A stretch of DNA of 64,000 nt from Labia minor (taxonomy: Eukaryota; Arthropoda; Insecta; Dermaptera; Spongiphoridae). The first letter of the stretch is position 1. Every line of letters starts with the position of its first letter. The stretch lies in contig OY720344.1 in NCBI GenBank assembly GCA_963082975.1, positions 68,476,546 to 68,540,545 of the forward strand, read 5' to 3'. The notes below the pieces were generated by a model that worked only from the letters and a program-made list of their open reading frames with translations, did no database searches and was not told the origin of the DNA. Positions 9,562 to 53,829 of the stretch are shown here, in pieces. The position numbers and the translations under genes are program-made.

Positions 9562-9982
9562 ACCGACCGACGATCTTAACAGAAAAAAGTATTTTTAGCA
9601 TGATGTCCGTCCGTCCGTATAGATGTGTACAGCCTGGGTTATTTTCACACCAAATTTCACATGAGGAGATTTTTTTATATATATTACCACGAATCATGCA
9701 CTTTGTATTGGTTTTATCCTCGGGAAAATCATATTTATTAGTTTTTTCTTGATTTAAAATTATATGACGTCATCCAGCTATTTATGACGTCACAGCCTGG
9801 TCTTGCATATATATTATAAATAAAATAAAATTAAAAATGTTTATATTTATTATTTATGTATCCATATCAGTTATTTATTACATTATATAGATATATTAAA
9901 ATTATTTGAAATTGTTTCTGTAGCTGCTAATTAATTTACTTCAAATCGTCGGTCGGTTCGGACTTGGCCACAGGTCAACTTA
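9562..9982 (+). mobile_element. R1 HINE-like element, copy 1 (internally deleted)
   Basis: It begins ACCGACCGACG after TT and ends with the R1 stem-loop and CTTA followed by TT. Compared with copy 5 it lacks about 90 bp after the 5' end and about 150 bp in the middle. The GTCY microsatellite (GTCCGTCCGT) and both TGACGTCA boxes (9765-9772, 9785-9792) remain. Confidence 0.65.
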
Positions 9983-10646
9983 TTTATATTATATTCAATA
10001 TTGTTAATTAAATTTTATTTTACCTGAACTTTGAGAGGTTTAATAAGTATTATTTAATAAAAACGATTTTAGAAAAGAGCTGATTATATTATTATTATTT
10101 TTCATTGAACATTTATAAAAAAGTGAGCATTACAATTTAATTACTTACTATACATCCATATTACTATAAATTTAAGATTATAATAACAGGCTCAGTATAC
10201 AATTATATTACTGATTGTGATATGTTCAAAGTTCATGTTATCAAAATATATAACTAACAACATGACAGGTTATTGTAAATAAAATATATATATAAAAAAA
10301 ATGTGAAAATTGTATCAACTTTCTCTCCTAATTAAAAATTTACATTTGCATATTCTTTTATCACCCTAAAAGAGTAAATAAATAAATGACAAAAATACTT
10401 TTCAATTATTCTTTATCAAATATTTATAAATAGAGTGATAAAAACTTGGGCATCCATTTTATTTATTTATTTTTTCCAATTTATTGTTTTGAAAAGAAGG
10501 AAAACAGACAGGAAATAATATCCTATTGATTTTGCATATATTTTCGGTTTTTGTAAAATGGTTGTTCTCTTTCAACTTTGATAGGAAAACATCCCCCGAT
10601 ATTTGTTCATTTTTTTTTTCAACTAATTAAAAGATACTTTTTTTAA

Positions 10647-16575: not shown

Positions 16576-17971
16576 TAAGTTGACCTGTGGCCAGGTCCGA
16601 ACCGACCGACGGTTTGAAGTAAATTAATTAGCAGCTACAGAAACAATTTCAAATAATTTTAATATATCTATTAATGTAATAAAAAACTGATATGGATACA
16701 TAAATAATAAATATAAACATTTTTAATTTTATTTTATTTATAATATATACAGTGGCGTACCTAGAACTTTTGCCGCCCGGGGCGATCTCCAGTTTGCCGC
16801 CCTTTTTATTATAAGTCAATCAAATAGTGGTATTTATAAATTAATGCACATAAATAAATTATTAAGTTATTTAATCAATATTAATTAATACACAGAGTAA
16901 ATTTTTTTTACACATATTTGTATGCACTCGTAAACATATTAATATAATATTTACTTTTCTAGCTTTCTTACTAGAAAAATCATGTATAATGCTCTCAAAA
17001 TTTATATTTATATTTTTTCCGCCGGCCCTGCTTTTCAAAAGAAAAATCGATGATTTAAAAAAATATTGGTATATCACTTCAAAGTAATCATATAAACTTT
17101 TCAAAAGAAATGACATTTGTAAACTGATATCAAAAAATTTTAGTTAGGAAAAATTGCTGAACAAAATCGTAAAGATGCGTTTACGAAATCAACGAATTTT
17201 AATGAATACAATAAAATAAAATTATTATCTTGTTCTTGGAATTAGAATTCAAAATTTACACTAAAATGCATTTATATACACCGAGGAATAATATTCGAAT
17301 TCATATAGTTGATCATAATTTATATAAATCAAATAGTAAACTTATAATAATCATAATAATCATTTATTATTCAAGAAAGAAAAAAAATAAATATGAAATG
17401 AATAAGTTGCTCTTTACAACTATAACTAAATATAAAAAATGCCGCCCCAAGATAAGTGCCGCCCGGTGCGGACCGCACCCACCGCACCCCCCTAGGTACG
17501 CCACTGAATATGTATGCAAGACCAGGCTGTGACGTCATGAATGGCTGGATGACGTCATATAATTTTGAATCAAGAAAAAACTAATAAATATGATTTTCCC
17601 GAGGATAAAACCAATACAAAGTGCATGATTCGTGGTGATATATAAAAAAATCTCCTCATGTGAAATTTGGTGTGAAAATAACCCTTCCCTTCCTATCGTC
17701 GATCGCTAATACTACCACTTCCGGTTTCCGGATTTGCACCAAGAGTTGATCAATTCATCCCACTCATGCATTAAGTAAATATACCAAATTTCATCAAAAT
17801 CGGTTGAGCCGTTCAGGCTGTACACATCTATACGGACGGACGGACGGACAGACATCATGCTAAAAATACTTTTTTCTGTTAAGAAAATGCATGATTCGTG
17901 GAGATATGTAAAAATCTCCACATGTGAAATTTGGTGTGAAAACAATACCTCCCTTACTATCGTCGGTCGGT
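16576..17971 (-). mobile_element. R1 HINE-like element, copy 2 (split by a hAT)
   Basis: This is a full-length R1 element in reverse. Its 3' stem-loop (GACCTG/CAGGTC) and TAAG end are at 16576, and its 5' ACCGACCGACG end is at 17971, with AA on both flanks. It is interrupted at 16750-17506 by a hAT element. Both TGACGTCA boxes (17530-17537, 17550-17557) and the GTCY microsatellite are present. Confidence 0.75.
16750..17506. mobile_element. Non-autonomous hAT element
   Basis: It has 15-bp perfect terminal inverted repeats (CAGTGGCGTACCTAG / CTAGGTACGCCACTG), flanked by an 8-bp target duplication with one mismatch (AATATATA / AATATGTA). The insertion point is confirmed by comparison with intact R1 copies, where the sequence is continuous. 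GCCGCCC-rich subterminal motifs occur at both ends. The interior is AT-rich with no transposase. Confidence 0.88.
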
Positions 17972-17978
17972 AAAAATG

Positions 17979-18900: not shown

Positions 18901-19726
18901 TAGGGTGACCAAACGTCCCGTCTTTAGGTGCTCTGTCCCAAAAATGTCTTCGGGACACCCTACTGTCCCGTTTTTTCAATATTTAGGACATTTCGTAATT
19001 TTTTTTTCAAAATTTTTTCAATTTAGTTCTAAAATAAGTTGACCTGTGGCCAGGTCCGAACCGACCGACGGTTTGAAGTAAATTAATTTCCAGCTACAGA
19101 AACAATTTCAAATAATTTTAATATATCTATTAATGTAATAAAAAATAGATATGGATACATAAATAGTAAATATAAACATTTTTAATTTTATTTTATTTAT
19201 AATATATATGCAAGACCAGGCTGTGACGTCATGAATGGGTGGATGACGTCATATAATTTTAAATCAAGAAAAAACTAATAAATTTGATTTTTTCGAGGAT
19301 AAAACCAATACAAAGTGCATGATTCGTGGTGATATGTAAAAAATCTCCTCATGTTAAATTTGGTGTGAAAATAACCCTTCCCTTCCTATCGTCGATCGCT
19401 AATACTACCACTTCCGGTTTCCGAATTTGCACCAAAAGTTGATCAATTCATCCCACTGATGCATTAAGTAAATATACCAAATTTCATCGAAATCCGTTCA
19501 GCCGTTTAGGCTGTACACATCTATACGGACAGAGGGACGGACGGACGGACAGACATCATGCTAAAAATACTTTTTTCTGTTAAGAAAATGCATTATTCGT
19601 GGAGATATGTAAAAATCTCCACATGTGAAATTTGGTGTGAAAACAATACCTCCCTTACTATCGTCGGTCGGTAAAAAAGGTATACCGTTTGTCCCGGTTT
19701 GGTGTTTTCGAAATATGGTCACCCTA
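18901..19726. mobile_element. Non-autonomous hAT element with perfect 8-bp duplication
   Basis: The ends are TAGGGTGACC and GGTCACCCTA. The flanks are GTCATCGA at 18893-18900 and 19727-19734, an exact 8-bp duplication. Inner ends share an ACGTCCCG / GTCCCGG motif typical of this hAT group. It sits inside a LINE fragment and itself contains R1 copy 3, so the order of events is LINE, then hAT, then R1. Confidence 0.92.
19035..19672 (-). mobile_element. R1 HINE-like element, copy 3 (nested in hAT)
   Basis: This is a full-length reversed R1 with the stem-loop end at 19035 and the ACCGACCGACG end at 19672, AA on both sides. TGACGTCA boxes lie at 19224-19231 and 19244-19251. Confidence 0.8.
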
Positions 19727-37010: not shown

Positions 37011-37592
37011 TCTTTTAATTTTTAATCGGAAAAAAAAAATTAAAAAAATGTCTTATCATCGAAGAATGCAATAGAATAATTGTTTAATATATAATTAAAA
37101 TATGATTAACAAAGAATTAGTTAATATTAATGAAAAGCCAAAAAAAAAACAAGTCTCATTTACTTTGTTATTTAAATTCTAACAAAATTTTTCACATATG
37201 AAATTTGTAAAATAAATTTTTCTATAAATTTTTTACAATTTAGAAAATATAGCCATTTTACTTTTTTGATTTCTATTAATTTATTTATTTATGAAGGTAT
37301 TTAAGTCGTTAGCACCCCAATAAAAGCAAAAATATAAAATTTAGACATAATCGGTTTGAGTAGAATTTTATTCACAAAATTTCTGACACATAAATATATT
37401 TCCCACCCCGACAAGAACAACTAAAAAAATCCCGATTTTTAGTTAAGTTCACTGGTGAATGGATCAGTTATACAACTACGAGCACAAAAATGTCATAACT
37501 GTAACTCTAGATTTGTCCGCAGTTGTGTCATCTTTACTTTTAGACTAGTTGACACTTAATTTTCTTTAAAATTGTATAAATTCAAGGTTTTT

Positions 37593-38227
37593 ACCGACCG
37601 ACGATAGTAAGGGAGGTATTGTTTTCACACCAAATTTCACATGTGGAGATTTTTACATATCTCCACGAATCATGCATTTTCTTAACAGAAAAAAGTATTT
37701 TTAGCATGATGTCTGTCCGTCCGTCCGTCCGTCCGTATAGATGTGTACAGCCTGAACGGCTGAACGGATTTTGATGAAATTTGGTTTATTTACTTAATGC
37801 ATCAGTGGGATGAATTGATCAACTTTTGGTGCAAATCCGGAAACCGGAAGTGGTAGTATTAGCGATCGACGATAGGAAGGAAAGGGTTATTTTCACACCA
37901 AATTTCACATGAGGAGATTTTTTTATATATCACCACGAATCATGCACTTTGTATTGGTTTTATCCTCGGGAAAATCATATTTATTAGTTTTTTCATGATT
38001 TAAAATTATATGACGTCATCCAGCCATTCATGAAGTCACAACCTGGTCTTGCATATATATTATAAATAAAATAAAATTAAAAATGTTTATATTTATTATT
38101 TATGTATCCATATCTGTTTTTCATTACATTAATAGATATATTAAAATTATTTGAAATTGTTTCTGTAGCTTCTAATTAATTTACTTCAAACCGTCGGTCG
38201 GTTCGGACCTGGCCACAGGTCAACTTA
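37593..38227 (+). mobile_element. R1 HINE-like element, copy 5 (full-length reference)
   Basis: This is a 635-bp element. The 5' ACCGACCGACG is matched by CGTCGGTCGGT near the 3' end. The order after that is TCG, stem-loop GACCTG-GCCA-CAGGTC, AACTTA, then TT. Inside are GTCTGTCCGTCCGTCCGTCC (GTCY microsatellite), an AATCCGGAAACCGGAAGTGG block and a TGACGTCA box whose partner is mutated to TGAAGTCA. It has no coding capacity. The architecture matches Helentron-associated interspersed elements such as Drosophila DINE-1. Confidence 0.75.
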
Positions 38228-39404
38228 TTTGGTTGTGTCACTGTTCGGGGTGCGATATATTTGAATTTAGAGAAATGAAGGTGTATCAATGTGTTTGTGC
38301 AACAAAAAGTACAACAATCATTTATGTAAAGATAATTAACCAACCATTTTTACATAATCAATTGTTATAATCGATTGCTGGTATTCTGTTTGTTTATTGT
38401 CATGATTGACATCAACAACCGTAAAATTTAAGCGTATTCTGTGGTATATAAATAATTTCGTAGTTTAATTAAATCTTATTCCAAAATTATCTTACCTTAA
38501 AAAAATTTAAAGTAAATCTGTTTTATTGTTAAATTGTATATACGTATTTATAATTGATCTTTAGATCTAAATAAATTTAGAATCTTATATAAAATATTAA
38601 AATCAAAAATAAATTAAATGCAATATACTTAAATATATTTAAAATAAATAATATTTAAATGTGATTTAGTAAAACATTAGAAATATAATTTATTTAATTT
38701 TGTTTAAACGAATTAAAATTAAGATTTGAATCGAGGAGTATTTATATTTTGCGATTTCTCTGTTATATTTTTACAAATGAATGAATATTTGAGTAGAAAA
38801 AAATGAAAGAAAATATTTCAAATGTAAATATAGAAAAAGTAAAGAATATTCAATAAAAAGTTAAGTAGATAATAAAACTTTATAATAGATATTTATTGAT
38901 TGAAAAGAAAATTTATCCATGTCAAAAGGTTTTTATATTTCAATAATTTAAGCTTAGAAAATTGACTGAAATTAGAAGGAAGTTTCTAATAAAAGAAAAT
39001 CGTTTCTTTCTAAATGATTAAAATTTGTATTACTAGTAAAATGATTTTAAATTGCTTTAAATTATTTGAAAAATATTATCTAATCAAAAACATACCTGTT
39101 AAAAAGGGGGTCAAGTTCCTATCGGCTATTTGTTTGCCTAAAAAAGGGTTCAAATCTATCCCAATGGCAAGTTTAGATGCACTTTAAAATCAATCATAAT
39201 CATTTTCATCAACAGCCTGATCCACTGGTAAACAAACATTTGGCATTCCCAAGAATCGCCATCACACCCAGTCCTCCGCCTCCTGCATCCAGGCACGCCA
39301 CTTTATTCGCGTCTACGATCCATCTGGCCGAAATTCACTTTACCATACACCCAACTTAAAATATGATATAGTTGTTAAAATACGTAGGTACATGGTTTAA
39401 AATA
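38228..39404. other. Intergenic AT-rich sequence; one coding-like patch
   Basis: About 39180-39370 is GC-richer. On the minus strand it gives a LINE-end-like IKWRAWMQEAEDW with stops. The class is unresolved. Nothing else is recognised. Confidence 0.4.
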
Positions 39405-39549: not shown

Positions 39550-39650
39550 GCCCTGAATGGTTAATTCTCGGCATTGAGATCGATGGGTCTCTGGACTCAT
39601 TAATAAATTTATTTTAGTTTTAATCATTCTTAGTGATAATGACTATTATT

Positions 39651-39988
39651 ACCGACCGACGATAGTAAGGGAGGTATTGTTTTCACACCAAATTTCACAT
39701 GTGGAGATTTTTACATATCTCCACGAATCATGCATTTTCTTAACAGAAAAAAGTATTTTTAGCATGATGTCTGTCCGTCCGTCCGTCTGTCCGTATAGAT
39801 GTGTATAGCCTGAACGGCTAACCGGATTTTGATGAAATTTGGTATATTTACTTAATGCATCCGTGGGATGATTTGATCAACTTTTGGTGCAAATCCGGAA
39901 ACCGGAAGTGGTAGTATTAGCGATCGACGATAGGAAGGGAAGGGTTATTTTCATACCAAATTTCACATGAGGAGATTTTTTACATATC
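39651..39988 (+). mobile_element. R1 HINE-like element, copy 6 (3'-truncated)
   Basis: The 5' ACCGACCGACG follows TT. The body matches copy 5 through the GTCY microsatellite and stops near the GAGGAGATTTTTTACATATCA stretch. The CRE-like and stem-loop portion is lost. Confidence 0.7.
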
Positions 39989-40126
39989 ATAAAATTATTA
40001 TTGAAAACTGGGTCACGAATACTGAAAGGTTTAGAAACGCTGAGATAATTTATGTATTTTATAATAAAATGAATAAATTGAAAAATCTTACTTTTTTTAT
40101 CTTGGTCATATATCGTATAAATTAGT

Positions 40127-40448: not shown

Positions 40449-41258
40449 TCTTCTTCTTCTTCGTTGTCGATAACTTCCTAGCGGAAGTGCCGTGGCCCTA
40501 ATAACTCCAGGCCCCAACGGCCCGTACTTTGCGAGTCAGGGTTCGCCATCTAGAACGATGACGAGCGCTCGCTGCAGCCGACTGAAGGTTGGTGCCCAAG
40601 CCATCCCGAACTTGATCCGTCCATCTGGCTGGTGTGGTGGTGATCGGCCACGTCTCCTCGAGCCTTCAACTCTTCCCTGAATCACTATTCTCTCGATGCT
40701 GGAGTCTGAACGGGTGAGGTGGCCAAAGTAACTGATCACCCGCCCCAGCACTACACTGGAGAGGCGCTGTCCCGCACGGGCTTCCTTAAGTACGGAGATG
40801 TTTGTCCGGTGCGCCGTCCACGGAATACGCAGCATCCTTCTCCAACACCACAGCTCGAATGCATCGAATTTTTTGCAGATGTTCTGCTTCAGGGTCCAGG
40901 TCTTGGATGCGTAGAGCATGATGGGAAAAACCAGAGTGGTGACAATTAATTTTTTTGTGTTCGTGGTCAGGTTGCTGGATTGCCATATTCTTTTCAGCCT
41001 TACCATCGCTGACCTTCCCATCTGGATCCGGCGAATCACCTCACCATCACAGCCACCCCCGTTAGTGATCATGGACCATAGATAGTTGAAGCGATCCACT
41101 ACCTCGTATCCTGCGATATATAAGGCCTCCGGACTGTTATTATTGGCACGGTCAAAAATCATCACCTTGGTCTTGCTTTTATTAATGAGAAGCCCAAATT
41201 CTCCGCTCGTTTTTTCCAGCTTGCAGAGAAGGCGGACTATTTCTTCTTCCGAGATATA
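40440..41258 (-). pseudogene. LINE (RTE-like) reverse transcriptase C-terminal fragment
   Basis: A 209-codon open frame, open further upstream to about 41258, reads EEEIVRLLCKLEKTSGEFG, then INKSKTKVMIF, then FNYLWSMITNGGGCDGEVIR. It ends ELWCWRRMLRIPWTAHRTN. This is the RT thumb and C-terminal region of RTE/BovB-like LINEs. A frameshift near 40610 moves the true end to another frame (RHRSRWRTLTR, stop near 40508). A short 3' tail ends in a GAA repeat (CTTCTTCTT on the plus strand) and a TA run. It is 5'-truncated at a TA microsatellite. It is better preserved than the other LINE fragments. Confidence 0.8.
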
Positions 41259-46162: not shown

Positions 46163-46738
46163 ATATTGTCGTATATTGGATGACTTAGGTATGGTGGTTT
46201 ATGAGAAAAAATGGGTTGAAAATAAGATTAAATTAATTTGGTAGCACTCTGGATTAATTTATGAAGAATAAATGGATAATTGAATCCGCGAAGGATGATA
46301 AGGGAAATGATAAAATTGAATTCGTTCAGATTAAAAATGCATATATAAAATTAAACTAAAATTATGTATTTAATAAAATAAAAGAATTAATATTATAAAA
46401 ATAGATAACAAAGAAATTATAAAGAGTTGATATGGTACCGTTTTAAATAGGAATATTAGAAATGAAATGAAATTTAATTTCATTAAGCAATTACAATTAT
46501 TTTAATAAGCAAGGGTCGACCACTTAGCTGTATGTGAAAAAGAAAATGAAAACTCTCCATTCCTACCCCCACCTTGAATACACGGATGGGTCTCTGTATA
46601 TCTGTAGACCACATGTATTATGACCAAATGTCCTTCATTCTCCAATTTAGCAAAATTCTTTATATCATCCACATGTGCTAAAAATATCTTTCTAGGTTTC
46701 CGCACCATTGAATATATAAAAATGCATTTTTATGCTTA
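46163..46738 (+). repeat. Decayed LTR-like dispersed repeat, copy b (gypsy target)
   Basis: It starts near TTGTCGTATAT and matches 11237-12055 in scattered blocks (TTTATGAGAAAAAA, TTGGTAGCACTCTGGATTxA, TTGAATCCGCGxAGG). The intact gypsy element is inserted at its right end. Confidence 0.4.
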
Positions 46739-47489
46739 TGTAATATTTTAATCTATAAATATTTTTATATATTATATATAATATATAAAAATAAATATAA
46801 ATCGATTTTTTAATTAATAATATTTCTAAAATAATCGAGATTCGCAGAAGAGGGGAGTAAGGTGAACAAAGTACTTGAGGGGTCGATTGGTAGGTTCTGG
46901 GTGCGTGGAGGACATTCAAGGAGGAATCGTCTGTGAGTGCGGGCTTACCTGTGAGTGTGACCCTTTTCCCTTCCCCGCTGCACGTCTGGCCTATACTCAG
47001 AGGAGTGCGTATATATATTTGGTTTAAAAGTGATTATTTGTGAAGTGTTACAATAAAATTTATATTATTTATCAAACAATATTAAATTAAGTGTTAATTA
47101 GAATTTATATTTGTACTTATCAATTAATAAGTAATATAAATTCACAAGTTAAATAGTGTTAAGTGAAGATTAAAACTAAGTCAAGAAATCAAGTTAATTT
47201 GATTGGTGTTATAAATAAATAAGTTATTTTTATAGAATTAAACTATATTGTATTATATTAAGAGTAAATATTTATAGTTGTTAATTTTAGTAATATATTA
47301 GTTAATCAATTATTTGTATGTATAAAATATATTAAATTAAGTGTATCATTTTAGTTATAAGGATTACAACTAAATGTTAATTTAAAATTTTATTAATTTT
47401 TTTATTATTAAATCAAATAATTTAATAATATGTACATTAATAAAAGTTAGTGGTGTCTTAATTTAATAACAATATTTTCCCACATTACA
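46739..47489 (+). repeat. 5' LTR
   Basis: It begins TGTAAT and ends ATTACA (6-bp inverted ends). A TATA-like GTATATATATTTG lies at 47009-47020 and AATAAA at 47052-47057. A GC-richer block (46850-47008) upstream of the TATA is a likely promoter region. It is the same length as the 3' LTR, with no difference seen. Confidence 0.95.
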
Positions 47490-47491
47490 AA

Positions 47492-47509
47492 TGGTGTCAG
47501 TAGTGAAAT
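47492..47509 (+). other. Primer-binding site, probably tRNA-Leu
   Basis: Two bases after the 5' LTR, TGGTGTCAGTAGTG complements the CCA end of a tRNA. TGGTGTCAG fits a leucine tRNA 3' end; the rest fits imperfectly. Confidence 0.6.
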
Positions 47510-47593
47510 CTTTGCAACAAGAAGTGTTAATAGAACCCATCACAAAAAGTAAGTGCAATTAACTTTTATAACTTATTATACCATTAAATCACA

Positions 47594-48568
47594 ATGCCGC
47601 CAAAAGTTGACCCTGAAACAGTCTCGGATGTATTAAATGAATTGAAAGATCATCTTTCGAAAATAAGTATTCAATCAACTAGTACTATGTCTGCAGCTCC
47701 TGATTTGTCCCTACAAGCCCTCGTTCCATATTGGTCCGGTTCATCCGAGTCAGAACCTATTGAGTCATTTTTATTAAACTTTGATAGAGTTGCACAGTTA
47801 GGTGGATGGTCAATAGTTCAAAAGAAGCTTATTCTTCTAATGAAATTGAAGGATAGAGCAGCTTTGGGTATTAAAGATGAATGGACATATGAGGAATTAA
47901 AACAAGAGTTAACTAAGAAATTTGAAAGACCTTCAACTAAACTTTTATTGAAAAAGAAACTACTAAATCTATCACAAAACCCTGAGGAGAGTGTACGGGA
48001 GTTCGCAGATAGAATTATTAATGTTCAGAGTTTAGCATCCAAGGAAGGAGTAAAGGAAGATGAAACAACTATGTTAGAAATTTTTCTATTAGGTTTAAGA
48101 GGAAAATTAGGAGTGGAGGTTAGATGTAGTTCACCCACTACTTATGAAGAGGCGTTAGATAGAGCTATAAAAAGAGAGCGCGAATACAATGAAATTTCTC
48201 CTATAATGGGAGTAAGTGAAGCTTCTTATATAAATGAGCAGCAATGTATTTGTTGTGGCTTGAAGGACCATTGGATGGCCGATTGCAAGAGCCCAGTTGC
48301 AGTTGCTTTGTTAAAAACAAATGAACTTAGCAATAACTGCCAAGTTACGGGTTTATCATCAATAAGATGTTTCAATTGCAATCAGGAAGGCCATGTAGCA
48401 AGAAACTGTAATAAAAAAAAACAGGTTGTGAGCGATAAGCAATGTTTTATATGTGGGAGCCCAAGACATTTAACTAAAGAGTGTTCTCGTAGATTTGATA
48501 GAAATTCTAATCGCATCCCTCGAGGTACTAACAATAACCAACGATACCCAAAAGATCAGGGTCGTTAG
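47594..48568 (+). CDS. gag: Gypsy Gag polyprotein
   Basis: The 324-residue structural protein packages element RNA. Residues about 60-200 form a retrotransposon Gag capsid-type region (pieces such as WTYEELKQELTKKFERP, then SVREFADRI). It is followed by three CCHC zinc knuckles with CX2CX4HX4C spacing at 218-231, 259-272 and 284-297 for nucleic acid binding. The ATG at 47594 lies about 100 bp after the primer site and is the first long frame. The stop TAG (48566-48568) lies inside the stem of the frameshift signal, so most ribosomes should end here and a minority continue into Pol. Confidence 0.93.
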   Translation: MPPKVDPETVSDVLNELKDHLSKISIQSTSTMSAAPDLSLQALVPYWSGSSESEPIESFLLNFDRVAQLGGWSIVQKKLILLMKLKDRAALGIKDEWTYEELKQELTKKFERPSTKLLLKKKLLNLSQNPEESVREFADRIINVQSLASKEGVKEDETTMLEIFLLGLRGKLGVEVRCSSPTTYEEALDRAIKREREYNEISPIMGVSEASYINEQQCICCGLKDHWMADCKSPVAVALLKTNELSNNCQVTGLSSIRCFNCNQEGHVARNCNKKKQVVSDKQCFICGSPRHLTKECSRRFDRNSNRIPRGTNNNQRYPKDQGR

Positions 48569-48589
48569 GATTCCCTGACCGAACGACCC
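48547..48589 (+). promoter_or_regulatory. -1 ribosomal frameshift signal (gag to pol)
   Basis: The heptamer CCCAAAA at 48547-48553 reads C-CCA-AAA in the Gag frame, fitting X-XXY-YYZ. Five bases later an 8-bp stem GGGTCGTT / AACGACCC (48559-48566, 48582-48589) closes a 15-nt loop. An alternative stem TCAGGG / CCCTGA (48556-48561, 48573-48578) overlaps it. The Pol frame is open only from 48538, so the heptamer is inside the 31-nt overlap where a shift must happen. Confidence 0.8.
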
Positions 48590-48657
48590 AAAATAAGGAG
48601 AACAGTAGACGAGTTCCGTCTGTTCTGAAAGGGAAACCTGCAGGGGTCATACTGACA

Positions 48658-51600
48658 ATGTTATGCCAAGATAAAGCCTATCATTTATTGGTGGATACAG
48701 GAGCAGATATTTCTATATTAAAAACTCCCATTGCGGGGGTGAAAATTCATCAATCAAATATAAAAGCTAAAGGGGTTAGTGGAGAAGTATTAGTGGTTAG
48801 AGGAGAACAAAATGTATTAGGTAAGATAGATAATGTGGATATCGAACATAGATTTCTAATTGCATCTATAGAAACACAACATGATGGACTCGTTGGACTG
48901 GATTTCCTAGAAGCGGTAGGAGCTGTTATCGACTGCACTAACAGAGAAACCAAAATATCCAAAATAAAAACAAACCGTTCTCCTTATAACGAGACTGGGC
49001 AACAAGTATGTTTGATTGAAAAAGTAATTTTACCTCCTTGGAGTGAATTTGTTTGCTCCGGAAGGTTAACTAAGGGAAGGGGCAAGAATATTGCAGGTGA
49101 CTATATTCTAGAGCCTCAAAACGAAACTCTTATTCCGATGAGAGTTGCACGGTCAGTAATCCGATTAAAGGATAATAAAATTCCAATCAAATTAATAAAT
49201 ACTAGTAATAGTAGCATTACTCTCCCCCGAGGTAAAGTAATCGGAACACTTAGTAATATAGCCGAAACATTAAGCGATTTTGGACCTGGTGTAGAAGAAG
49301 AAAACTTGAGAGATATTGCCAAGGAAAAATTGAAACACTTAAACAACGAAGAATATAGGACTATGATTAATCTCTTAGAAAAATATAATTCAATTACCTT
49401 TAATCAAAACCTTAAACAAGGTACCAACATCAACGTTTTTCACAACATAAGAACAGGCGATGCAAAGCCGATTTATAAGCGAGCCTATCCAATTCCATTT
49501 CATCTCAAAGAAGAGGTCAAAAGTCAAGTTTCAGATATGTTAGAAAATGGAATAATTAAACATTCGACGTCTCCATGGTCTGCTCCTGTTGTCCTGGTTC
49601 CAAAAAAAGATAATGGCGAAGGAGTTAAATATCGTTTTTGTACTGATTTCAGAGAATTGAACGCCGTAACGAAACCTGATGTTTATCCTTTACCTCGGAT
49701 TCAAGAGACTCTTGAACAGTTAGGGAAGGCCTCTATATTTTCTACTATAGACTTGGCATCTGGATACCATCAAATACCAGTTGCCAAGGAAGATGTGGAA
49801 AAAACCGCCTTCTCTACTCCAGATGGACACTACGAATATGTTCGATTGCCATTTGGATTATCTGGAGCACCCGCCACGTTCCAACGAACAATGGATTCCA
49901 TTCTTGTTGGACTTAAAGGAACAGAATGTTTTGTCTATTTAGACGATGTGATAGTCTTTAGTGAGACTTTTGGAGAGCATGTTCAACGTTTGGACAGACT
50001 CTTAAATACGTTAAGAATGGCTAACTTAAAAATAAATATAAGAAAATGTGAGTTTGCTAAAAATAAAGTCAAATATTTAGGCCATATTGTGACGGATAAG
50101 GGCGTACAACCAGATCCTGAAACAGTTAAAGCAATTAAGGAGTACCCTCGACCTAAAACTGTGAGGCAAATCCGAGCCTTTTTGGGATTAGCAGGTTGGT
50201 ACAGGCGTTTCATCTCTAGGTTTTCTGAAATAGCTAAACCTCTTCATAAGGTAACTGGAAAACATGCAAGGTATGAATGGAATGAAGAGCAGGAAACCGC
50301 CTTTACGTCATTACGACAACTAATACAATCAAAGTTAATTTTAGCATATCCGGATTTTAGCCTTCCTTTTATTTTAAATACAGATGCATCAGATGTCGGA
50401 CTAGGAGCGGTCCTTTCTCAAATGCAATATGGAGAAGAAAGGCCCATTTGTTTTGCAAGCCGAACGCTTAGGAAAGCAGAGAAAAATTATACAACGACTG
50501 AAAAGGAATTGCTTGCTGTTGTATGGGCTACGCAGCAATTCCGTTGTTATATATATGGACGAACCTTCAGATTGATCACCGACCATTCTTCTTTAAGATG
50601 GATGCTAAACCTCAAAGATCCTTCGTCACGGATACATAGATGGGCTTGGAAACTATCACAATACTCATATACCGTAGAACACCGTCCAGGAAAATTACAC
50701 CATCATGCGGATGCCCTGAGTAGAGCCGTATTAGTTACAGGGGTAGAAGTCGTTCCCCACTGGGATATATCTCATATCGCTCAAGAACAACTAAATGACA
50801 CGTTCTGTCAGCGGATAATAAATGATCCCAACAGGGAGACTATTCAATATGAAACGCTGTGGTATGTAAAGCAGAAAGATAAATCCGATGAGAGATATTG
50901 GTACAAATTGTTGATGCCCAAGAAATTTGTTCATTTTATCTTGGATACATATCACTCAGAACCATTAGGGGGTCATAGAGGAATTGAGTCCACATTAGAA
51001 CGATTGAGAAAAAGATATGTCTGGGAATCTATGCGTCATGATATTGAAACGTTTGTTAAAAATTGTTCCTCTTGTGCTCAACGGAAGAGTCCAGTAAATT
51101 TATCCGCCCCGATCGGTCTCCCTTACGAATCAGTCAAACCAATGGAGATGATATCCCTAGATATCGTGGGACCTCTACCCTTAACAGACCGAAAAAATAA
51201 ATTTTTATTAACAGCCATTGATCATTTCACTAAATATGCCTCTGTAATTCCACTACCTGATCAATCTGCTAGGACTGTAGCCAAAGCATTTGTGGATCAC
51301 ATTATTTGCAGGTACGGTACACCTGAAAGGCTCCTTACTGATCAAGGAAGAAATTTTATCTCAATCTTGATGTGCGAAGTTTGTAGATTTCTAAAAATAA
51401 AAAAAATTAATACTACAGCTTATCATCCTGAAAGTAACGGAATGATTGAGAGGTTCCATCGAACACTGATAGAGCAGCTAGCTCATTTTGTTAAGGCAAG
51501 TGGTCGTGATTGGGATGAGTGGACTGCCATGGAGGTATTTGCCTATAACAACACCCCTCATTCCTCTACTGGATTCTCACCTCAATTTTTATTTTTTGGA

Positions 51601-53013
51601 AGAGAGGCTGGTATGCCTAATGAACTTCCCCAACCTCCCTTGGGAACAGAAGAAGAATATTTACAAAAGTTGCGACAGGGAATGAATAAAATACATGAGG
51701 CAGTACTTAAACGTGAACAGAAGCAAAGAGAACGAAGAAACATATTAAGAAACAGAGGCAGAAAGGAAAGATCTTTTGTTAGAGGCGATTGGGTTTGGCT
51801 TTACGTTCCGTCTATTAAACCGTCAGAGGCAAAAAAATTTCGGAAACCCTGGAAAGGACCTTTTCAGGTAACAGAGAAATTGTCAGAGCAAGTTTACGAA
51901 ATAGAAACATCCCCAGATAATCGCTTAAGAGTTCACATCAACCGATTAAAACTCTCCACAATCAAGGGTAAATCTACTAGTCCGATTTCAGAGAAAAATG
52001 AAAACCTCTTTAGTCATCCGACTAATGAGCCTATTGGAGTCTGCATTGGTGCTGATTTGATTATGACCAAGGGCTTAGCTCTCGAAGTTAGAGAGAAGTT
52101 CAATGGATTAGACACTCTTAAAGCCCAACAACCCGAAGAGGGTAAAACCCTAAAATTAAATAGAGGAAGTAGAAAAATATACTACTTGGTTACCAAAACC
52201 CGAAGCCATGAAAGGTCAAATTATGGCAATCTTAAAAGAGCATGTGAGTCAATGCTCAAACATGCAGAAGAGTTAGGGGGTAGCCTGATAGGCCTCTCAA
52301 AAGAGGATTTAGTAACAGATAGACTACGTTGGAACGTAATTAAATCTATCCTTACTAAGTTATTAAAAAGATATTCCTCAAAAATAATTATATATATGAA
52401 ACGGAATTCTGACGACAAGGAGAAAGAGTCTTCTAATGAAGTACTGAATTATGATCCAGCAATTGGAGGCAGAAGAACAGAGAGAATGGGTTGGAGGAAT
52501 ACAATGGAGTTTCTAGAGAGGGAAAAACCAATTGACGTGGAACAGTTAGAGAAAGAACCTAATTCAGAGATGGAGATGGAAAGGGATAACGGGAGAGCAA
52601 TCAGCGATGTTGATAACTCCAGTTCAGAAATAGAACCTCAGGACGAGCAGGTGTCATCATCGGAGCGAGAAAATAATAACTCCTATGATCACCCGGCTAT
52701 TCTAGATTCGGAACAAGAGCCTAGAAGAGGTAAGAGACGTGGTCGCCCTCCTAAGAGGAAAATATTTAATTTCCACAAACGGAAAATTATCCCAATAGGA
52801 GGTGAACCCTCTGAAACCCCAGCATTTTTGGAAACGGAAGATCATCAATACTCAGAGGAAGATGATCCAGGTACATTATCTGATTGTGTAATTCCACACC
52901 AAAGTGAATTGGGTAAAGATATTGTTCCCAGGAGAGGAAGAAGAGAGGGTCTAAGGAGCCAAACTTATTATAGTTCTCAAAGGCACCATTCCAAAGCAGT
53001 ATTTTCTTATTAA
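48658..53013 (+). CDS. pol: Gypsy Pol polyprotein (PR-RT-RNaseH-IN-macro-tail)
   Basis: The first ATG is at 48658, but the frame is open from 48538 and is probably entered by frameshifting, adding about 35 residues. Numbering from 48658: protease VDTGAD (D13); reverse transcriptase with D365 (TIDLASGYH) and YLDD (427-430); RNase H D576, E617, D642; integrase zinc domain H766, H773, C803, C806; integrase core D835, D895, E931 with 35 residues between the last two; GPY/F module WKGPF from 1065 to about 1100. After that come a macro-like domain (about 1112-1249) and an acidic tail with RGRPPKR (1361-1367). At 1,451 residues it is several hundred longer than plain gypsy Pol. All catalytic residues are kept. 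No chromodomain is seen. Confidence 0.95.
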   Translation: MLCQDKAYHLLVDTGADISILKTPIAGVKIHQSNIKAKGVSGEVLVVRGEQNVLGKIDNVDIEHRFLIASIETQHDGLVGLDFLEAVGAVIDCTNRETKISKIKTNRSPYNETGQQVCLIEKVILPPWSEFVCSGRLTKGRGKNIAGDYILEPQNETLIPMRVARSVIRLKDNKIPIKLINTSNSSITLPRGKVIGTLSNIAETLSDFGPGVEEENLRDIAKEKLKHLNNEEYRTMINLLEKYNSITFNQNLKQGTNINVFHNIRTGDAKPIYKRAYPIPFHLKEEVKSQVSDMLENGIIKHSTSPWSAPVVLVPKKDNGEGVKYRFCTDFRELNAVTKPDVYPLPRIQETLEQLGKASIFSTIDLASGYHQIPVAKEDVEKTAFSTPDGHYEYVRLPFGLSGAPATFQRTMDSILVGLKGTECFVYLDDVIVFSETFGEHVQRLDRLLNTLRMANLKINIRKCEFAKNKVKYLGHIVTDKGVQPDPETVKAIKEYPRPKTVRQIRAFLGLAGWYRRFISRFSEIAKPLHKVTGKHARYEWNEEQETAFTSLRQLIQSKLILAYPDFSLPFILNTDASDVGLGAVLSQMQYGEERPICFASRTLRKAEKNYTTTEKELLAVVWATQQFRCYIYGRTFRLITDHSSLRWMLNLKDPSSRIHRWAWKLSQYSYTVEHRPGKLHHHADALSRAVLVTGVEVVPHWDISHIAQEQLNDTFCQRIINDPNRETIQYETLWYVKQKDKSDERYWYKLLMPKKFVHFILDTYHSEPLGGHRGIESTLERLRKRYVWESMRHDIETFVKNCSSCAQRKSPVNLSAPIGLPYESVKPMEMISLDIVGPLPLTDRKNKFLLTAIDHFTKYASVIPLPDQSARTVAKAFVDHIICRYGTPERLLTDQGRNFISILMCEVCRFLKIKKINTTAYHPESNGMIERFHRTLIEQLAHFVKASGRDWDEWTAMEVFAYNNTPHSSTGFSPQFLFFGREAGMPNELPQPPLGTEEEYLQKLRQGMNKIHEAVLKREQKQRERRNILRNRGRKERSFVRGDWVWLYVPSIKPSEAKKFRKPWKGPFQVTEKLSEQVYEIETSPDNRLRVHINRLKLSTIKGKSTSPISEKNENLFSHPTNEPIGVCIGADLIMTKGLALEVREKFNGLDTLKAQQPEEGKTLKLNRGSRKIYYLVTKTRSHERSNYGNLKRACESMLKHAEELGGSLIGLSKEDLVTDRLRWNVIKSILTKLLKRYSSKIIIYMKRNSDDKEKESSNEVLNYDPAIGGRRTERMGWRNTMEFLEREKPIDVEQLEKEPNSEMEMERDNGRAISDVDNSSSEIEPQDEQVSSSERENNNSYDHPAILDSEQEPRRGKRRGRPPKRKIFNFHKRKIIPIGGEPSETPAFLETEDHQYSEEDDPGTLSDCVIPHQSELGKDIVPRRGRREGLRSQTYYSSQRHHSKAVFSY
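51991..52407 (+). other. Macro domain (TARG1/OARD1-type) within Pol
   Basis: Pol residues about 1112-1249 resemble the ADP-ribose-processing macro domain of TARG1/OARD1. Landmarks in order are NLF, GVCIGADLIMTKGLALEVR, EKFNG, KIYYLVTKTRSH, YGNLKRACESMLKH, TDRLRWNVIKSIL and KIIIYMKR. The lysine of YYLVTK (K1180) aligns with the TARG1 catalytic lysine and D1221 in TDRLRW with its catalytic aspartate. The glycine-rich phosphate loop before that aspartate is replaced by SKEDLVT, so activity is uncertain. In cells the family removes ADP-ribose from glutamate; here a role against host ADP-ribosylation or in integration is inference. Confidence 0.8.
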
Positions 53014-53055
53014 AAATTTTCGGAAAAGATTTTAACTAACTATAAGCTTAAATCT

Positions 53056-53074
53056 TTTTTAAAGGGAGGAATAG
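53056..53074 (+). other. Polypurine tract
   Basis: AAAGGGAGGAATAG lies immediately before the 3' LTR TG. It primes plus-strand synthesis in LTR elements. Confidence 0.85.
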
Positions 53075-53825
53075 TGTAATATTTTAATCTATAAATATTT
53101 TTATATATTATATATAATATATAAAAATAAATATAAATCGATTTTTTAATTAATAATATTTCTAAAATAATCGAGATTCGCAGAAGAGGGGAGTAAGGTG
53201 AACAAAGTACTTGAGGGGTCGATTGGTAGGTTCTGGGTGCGTGGAGGACATTCAAGGAGGAATCGTCTGTGAGTGCGGGCTTACCTGTGAGTGTGACCCT
53301 TTTCCCTTCCCCGCTGCACGTCTGGCCTATACTCAGAGGAGTGCGTATATATATTTGGTTTAAAAGTGATTATTTGTGAAGTGTTACAATAAAATTTATA
53401 TTATTTATCAAACAATATTAAATTAAGTGTTAATTAGAATTTATATTTGTACTTATCAATTAATAAGTAATATAAATTCACAAGTTAAATAGTGTTAAGT
53501 GAAGATTAAAACTAAGTCAAGAAATCAAGTTAATTTGATTGGTGTTATAAATAAATAAGTTATTTTTATAGAATTAAACTATATTGTATTATATTAAGAG
53601 TAAATATTTATAGTTGTTAATTTTAGTAATATATTAGTTAATCAATTATTTGTATGTATAAAATATATTAAATTAAGTGTATCATTTTAGTTATAAGGAT
53701 TACAACTAAATGTTAATTTAAAATTTTATTAATTTTTTTATTATTAAATCAAATAATTTAATAATATGTACATTAATAAAAGTTAGTGGTGTCTTAATTT
53801 AATAACAATATTTTCCCACATTACA
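53075..53825 (+). repeat. 3' LTR
   Basis: This 751-bp copy matches the 5' LTR throughout by eye and is followed by the CTTA duplication. Confidence 0.95.
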
Positions 53826-53829
53826 CTTA

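Follow-up and report, generated by a model that had tools for sequence, protein, structure and literature searches.

The window analysed here is a stretch of 64,000 nucleotides from the genome of Labia minor (contig OY720344.1), and its subject is a Ty3/gypsy retroelement at 46739-53825 whose Pol reading frame runs past the integrase into a macro domain like that of human TARG1/OARD1. The element represents a gypsy lineage of this genome that carries a captured TARG1-type macro domain 3' of the integrase C-terminus. The window copy is intact: its long terminal repeats (LTRs) are a 751-bp pair with zero differences and TG...CA ends, CTTA stands on both sides, and because the two LTRs are identical the insertion is recent. 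Pfam domains follow the Ty3/gypsy order, with Gag followed by protease, reverse transcriptase (RT), RNase H and integrase, the protease matches lying under the Pfam cut-offs (gag-asp_proteas 0.0022, RVP 0.0062). Pol and the 3' LTR are just 61 bp apart, which leaves the window element without an env gene. The features are listed in Table 1.

The original prediction, made from the letters of the window, described a captured TARG1-type macro domain in gypsy Pol, and this was borne out by the intact element, its many copies and the TARG1 fold that the domain adopts in its predicted structure, the structural match that had been put forward as a check. The family-A structure model was built with an alignment containing OARD1 rows, which may bias it toward OARD1. 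Alignment also places K1180 and D1221, as proposed, at the positions of the TARG1 catalytic residues Lys84 and Asp125, and the glycine-rich loop, PRIGCGL in TARG1, is indeed replaced by SKEDLVT. A second check failed: the window domain gave zero match to Pfam Macro (PF01661) at E<=1. Homology over the whole domain, together with the fold, rules out a chance match.

Two further families of the same genome, here called B and C (the window copy belonging to family A), carry the domain in Pol as well. A single copy each of B and C was searched in pieces; in both, a single open frame contains RVT_1 and Macro (2.8e-36 and 7e-10 in the B copy, 1.5e-34 and 1.1e-07 in the C copy), and the order of domains is RVT_1, integrase zinc finger, integrase core and Macro. 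A family C copy exceeds the Pfam Macro cut-off (32.2 bits vs 22), and TARG1 is the top PDB match of the B copy (1.7e-14) and of the C copy (3.9e-20). A scan of the genome with Pfam Macro yielded 92 places, comprising 31 B, 57 C (assigned by position) and 4 rows from three other loci (L009-L011); family A was absent from all 92.

Table 1. Features of the macro-domain gypsy element in the window (positions in the 64,000-nucleotide stretch).
Feature	Position	Strand	Basis or remark
Target-site duplication CTTA, 5' copy	46735..46738	.	read from flanks
5' LTR (TG...CA)	46739..47489	+	751 bp, identical to 53075-53825
Probable (putative) primer-binding site, directly inside 5' LTR	47492..47509	+	inferred from position only
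Gag open reading frame, 324 amino acids	47594..48568	+	Pfam Retrotrans_gag 1.6e-08, zinc knuckles 4.9e-06
Pol open reading frame, 1451 amino acids	48658..53013	+	open reading frame list; Pfam domains
Reverse transcriptase, Pol 314-478	49597..50091	+	RVT_1 1.6e-34
RNase H, Pol 566-669	50353..50664	+	RT_RNaseH 1.5e-40
Integrase zinc-binding domain, Pol 754-811	50917..51090	+	Integrase_H2C2 6.6e-19
Integrase core, Pol 827-924	51136..51429	+	rve 2e-12
Integrase C-terminal module, Pol 1067-1098	51856..51951	+	Integrase_p58_C 8e-09
TARG1/OARD1-like macro domain, Pol 1112-1250, family A form	51991..52407	+	
K1180, equivalent of TARG1 K84	52195..52197	+	
SKEDLVT, Pol 1214-1220, degenerate diphosphate loop (TARG1 counterpart PRIGCGL)	52297..52317	+	
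D1221, equivalent of TARG1 D125	52318..52320	+	
AT-hook-like motif with IFNFHK block, Pol tail	52720..52785	+	family C block similar
Polypurine tract preceding 3' LTR	53061..53074	+	from sequence
3' LTR	53075..53825	+	751 bp
Target-site duplication CTTA, 3' copy	53826..53829	.	read from flanks

Searching the 604-Mb genome with the window domain gave 118 match rows, which rules out a single-copy accident. Rows were assigned to families by identity band and, for 40 fetched pieces, by sequence. Family A accounts for 27 rows from 25 loci (two are split into two rows), 10 of them 100% identical, the window's included; with its further families, the domain is thus not unique to this copy. Families B and C contribute 31 and 58 rows, and the last two are a relic termed D (L049) and an exon of the host OARD1 gene (L048). 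Many family C rows share one common domain score and a 1662-residue open frame. One copy of this family (L059, 5956-6699, G000:C1) has a baculovirus-F-type envelope reading frame after Pol (Baculo_F 2.6e-11), truncated where the fetched piece stops, and on this copy family C is an env-bearing, errantivirus-like gypsy family. Family A also includes older copies whose domain is interrupted by stops or frame breaks (L032 is frame-broken).

The D relic (L061 2483-3043, minus strand, G000:C10) comes from a fourth, divergent family and has a macro domain with, by eye, an integrase-end-like stretch upstream; Pfam gives Macro only below its cut-off and finds nothing in that stretch. It adjoins frames that by eye resemble a non-LTR reverse transcriptase.

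Beyond this genome, protein searches with the window domain returned nothing among 545 Pol-length candidates or among 7 candidates, although such searches need shared 5-residue words and are weak on absence. IMG/VR scans with the window domain, the junction, the pair of A and TARG1, the integrase, C alone, or C and B gave no relative. GTDB contigs yielded nothing with the window domain and 16 bacterial loci with a TARG1 alignment, 8 of which were used in the macro tree.

The macro domain begins a short way past one common integrase motif, H(I/V)NRLK, in families A, B and C. Identities among the three are 65-70% in RT, 38-46% in the C-terminal part of integrase and 25-39% in the macro domain (25-29% for A vs B and C, 39% for B vs C). 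Among the 150 of 1406 RT candidates scored in a genome search, those at least 60% identical belonged to A, B, C or close relatives, and those at 53% or below fell in other groups. Fourteen further gypsy loci were fetched on RT hits. Ten of these (L101-L110, some of them mutual near-copies) belong to distant groups, their RT 45-53% identical to that of the window, and over the roughly 3.7-4.2 kb that follow RT they show no macro match. Such a match is present in L099 and L112; L100 and L111 break frame early and could not be scored for it. The macro domain is therefore ruled out as a general gypsy feature of this genome.

A single capture before A, B and C split is the simpler and most likely reading. 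Several observations weigh against it. B, C and D group together in the macro tree at 100/98, these three have a YPRH block that A lacks, and A, with its low identity to B and C, sits apart from them on a very long branch (5.8 changes per column), while the RT tree does not resolve the position of A. They would suit a second capture, in which family A acquired its domain from an OARD1 gene independently of the B/C/D lineage. We regard this as rather unlikely. The insertion point after HxNRLK is the same in A, B and C, the tail block of A is similar to that of C, and fast evolution of A would alone pull it away. Moreover, A, B, C and L112 fall on one side of a branch in the integrase tree (70/80, not strong support), a single clade of A, B, C, L099 and L112 with L100 and L111 is not rejected by the RT data (p-AU 0.474), and neither is a single clade of all 7 retroelement rows by the macro data (p-AU 0.197). 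A and C also have in common a GRP(P/K)KR AT-hook-like motif in the Pol tail. Because similar GRP(K/R) motifs end 4 of the 10 macro-less loci (L106-L109), the integrase end and the tail may be older, with the macro domain placed between them later.

The ligand contacts of TARG1 and a TARG1-type pattern, TKx(30,35)Px[IL]GxGxD, have been published (PMC6397177). The pattern is present in 14 of 15 fetched family C pieces (L050, the exception, stops short of the loop) and in host OARD1. It occurs in none of the 15 family A pieces, window included, one of which is the frame-broken L032, and in none of the nine B pieces, all of which have the loop PRIGCGSD but Leu-Lys in place of Thr-Lys. Among 16 tabulated ligand and catalytic positions (PMC6397177), A keeps 7, B 8, C 11 and D 8. 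Family A retains the fold and the Lys/Asp pair but has lost the diphosphate loop together with several contacts to ribose and adenine: both GxG glycines, P118, D20, H32 and S35 are replaced, with Asn at the adenine-binding Asp20 and Gly at the distal-ribose Ser35. Because the loop and these contacts are lost, and constraint looks weak (see below), family A is most likely non-hydrolysing.

Other facts count against so simple an account. Lys and Asp are kept in all 12 family A copies compared and in B, C and D, family B is without the T83, D20, H32, C33 and S35 residues, and since Ala stands in place of S35 in host OARD1 too and 5 of the 16 contacts are missing from family C, any single loss carries little weight. 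One alternative is that the window domain is an active TARG1-like hydrolase despite its altered loop, as first proposed. The retained dyad and a predicted fold that is that of TARG1 speak for this, as does the plasticity of the active site in the related macrodomain SCO6735, which is active without the Lys/Asp dyad (PMC9411070). On the other hand, in SCO6735 the glycine change G128E partly abolished hydrolysis (PMC5087735), at a position that, on our reading, lies in the GxG loop. With six positions replaced, the TARG1-type pattern absent and constraint apparently weak, activity of the window domain is very improbable.

Selection was gauged from changes counted against a reference copy, in copies that were chosen and not random: for family A, 10 of the 25 loci plus the window, leaving out protein-identical, truncated and broken copies; for C, 8 of 58 rows plus reference; for B, 7 of 31 rows plus reference. 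The macro domain of family C is under purifying selection and is constrained like integrase, with nonsynonymous to synonymous counts of 17:23 (omega 0.22, binomial P 3e-6), compared with 30:54 (0.16) in integrase and 85:35 (0.68), plus two stop codons, in the tail; macro and tail differ (Fisher P 0.002). Family A gave 17:9 (0.52, P 0.09) in the macro domain, 25:13 (0.50, P 0.035) in the tail and 6:9 (0.18), plus one stop codon, in integrase, where 446 of 2710 codon cells were missing. Its macro constraint thus resembles that of the Pol tail and looks weak, on small counts. In family B the macro domain gave 17:12 (0.40, P 0.015, 7 copies), and the values for integrase (12:13, 0.25) and tail (12:3, 1.04) both come from a single diverged copy.

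The distinction between A and C is blunted by three points: the macro domain of A differs significantly neither from A integrase (Fisher P 0.19) nor from C macro (P 0.08), and related copies were treated as independent. On the proposed check for purifying selection on K1180 and D1221, both residues are kept in every family A copy compared, and the macro counts of family A are no different from those of its tail. Tail-like omega values of about 0.5, and older copies, L032 among them, whose domain contains stops or is out of frame, would also be expected of a host gene fragment trapped by chance, now neutral in family A and without a role. We think this improbable, as the domain is found in 25 family A loci and two further families, one of them clearly constrained, and no stop codon was seen in the domain of the 10 family A copies measured, which were chosen among the fuller ones.

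Taken together, we consider it probable that a gypsy lineage captured a macro domain that is constrained and likely an eraser in family C, and that most likely no longer hydrolyses in family A. In family C, the domain travelling with integrase would remove ADP-ribose added by the host. Candidate targets are the incoming complex of Gag, Pol and integrase, chromatin factors with a part in silencing the element or in receiving it, and DNA ends. In one host precedent, SIRT6 contributes to the silencing of L1 retrotransposons through mono-ADP-ribosylation of KAP1 (PMC4695847); by analogy, an element-borne eraser could counter a silencing step of this sort. The family A domain, most likely devoid of ADP-ribose hydrolysis, may be decaying or may serve as a structural or interaction module.

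Macro domains can act as readers, and the original prediction offered a working eraser or an ADP-ribose reader. Neither is supported for the window copy, with 7 of 16 positions kept and apparently weak constraint, and the eraser fits family C better. A reader would bind ADP-ribose or poly(ADP-ribose) without cleavage and, with the AT-hook-like tail, steer integration to chromatin marked by poly(ADP-ribose) polymerase (PARP). The general capacity of macro domains and the layout, with the domain directly behind the integrase C-terminus and the AT-hook-like motif after it, are in its favour. Family A, however, loses positions that hold diphosphate and adenine yet keeps the catalytic pair, the opposite of what a reader should show, and the tail is independent of the macro domain because macro-less loci end in such motifs too (L106-L109). 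We judge a reader quite improbable. A wider proposal, extrapolated from sequence, is that an animal gypsy/errantivirus-like clade has an active TARG1-type ADP-ribosylhydrolase fused to integrase, kept since host ADP-ribosylation restricts or silences retroelements, with the activity lost or replaced in family A; this is conceivable, and we put it forward tentatively.

ADP-ribosylation is an antiviral signal, and several RNA viruses erase it with macro domains. A TARG1-type domain in an integrase-bearing Pol, with more than 100 genome matches and one constrained family, would suggest that animal hosts and gypsy elements are engaged in the same conflict. The genome offers a natural series of pockets, with the full pattern in C, a partly altered one in B and a degenerate one in A, and the ADP-ribosylation conflict is testable with isolated domains.

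Elsewhere in the 64-kb window, neither a tRNA nor an Rfam family was found above threshold. A dispersed repeat family (9636-9985, 17507-17976, 19032-19677, 37588-38230 and 39645-39989) has copies of a few hundred bases each, about 94-97% identical and in both orientations. A 209-residue frame at 40536-41165 on the minus strand resembles, by eye, the end of a non-LTR retrotransposon; its Pfam DUF6451 match is sub-threshold.

Human TARG1/OARD1 (C6orf130) is a hydrolase of the ALC1-like class of macrodomains; in Labia minor such a domain is instead fused to gypsy Pol. Compared with it, neither the GxG loop nor D20 is left in family A, whereas family C keeps the TARG1 pattern. The host OARD1 of the same genome (L062) also has this pattern and is 29% identical to the window domain over the exon-2 frame, but is a cellular gene, its two matching stretches split by non-coding sequence, an apparent intron. 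The best viral structural matches to the window-domain model in BFVD were VP8 of Kadipiro virus (E 8.7e-14, 29% identity) and then a Frankliniella flavi-like virus polyprotein (E 9.2e-13, 21% identity), macro-like domains of arthropod-linked viruses. These are, to our knowledge, RNA viruses without integrase. Such model-based matches hint that arthropod-linked viruses (Kadipiro VP8, Frankliniella-associated viruses) have captured related macro domains too.

Among retroelements, epsilon-like endogenous retroviruses of fish carry macro-domain reading frames (PMC4977317, citing Basta et al. 2009). They resemble the present case as LTR retroelements with a captured macro domain and differ in that theirs are additional reading frames in retrovirus-like elements, while here the domain lies inside gypsy Pol after integrase (PMC4977317). 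In a literature search with subscription papers, preprints and repeat databases (which may annotate similar domains) outside its scope, macro domains in retroelements came up only in this form among the papers listed (PMC4977317). The closest case in gypsy Pol is that of Ectocarpus Gypsy elements, whose Pol has captured a domain of the NAD/ADP-ribose pathway, although it is a NADAR domain, N-terminal in Pol, in a brown alga (PMC12477816). Orchid Ty3/Gypsy elements have likewise captured a modification-removing enzyme, an AlkB-like demethylase reported to be active, which differs in being an RNA demethylase in an additional reading frame of a plant element (PMC9289625). A macro domain in LTR retroelements and an NAD/ADP-ribose-pathway domain in gypsy Pol were thus known; within the literature searched, what is new is a TARG1-type domain after the integrase in gypsy Pol.
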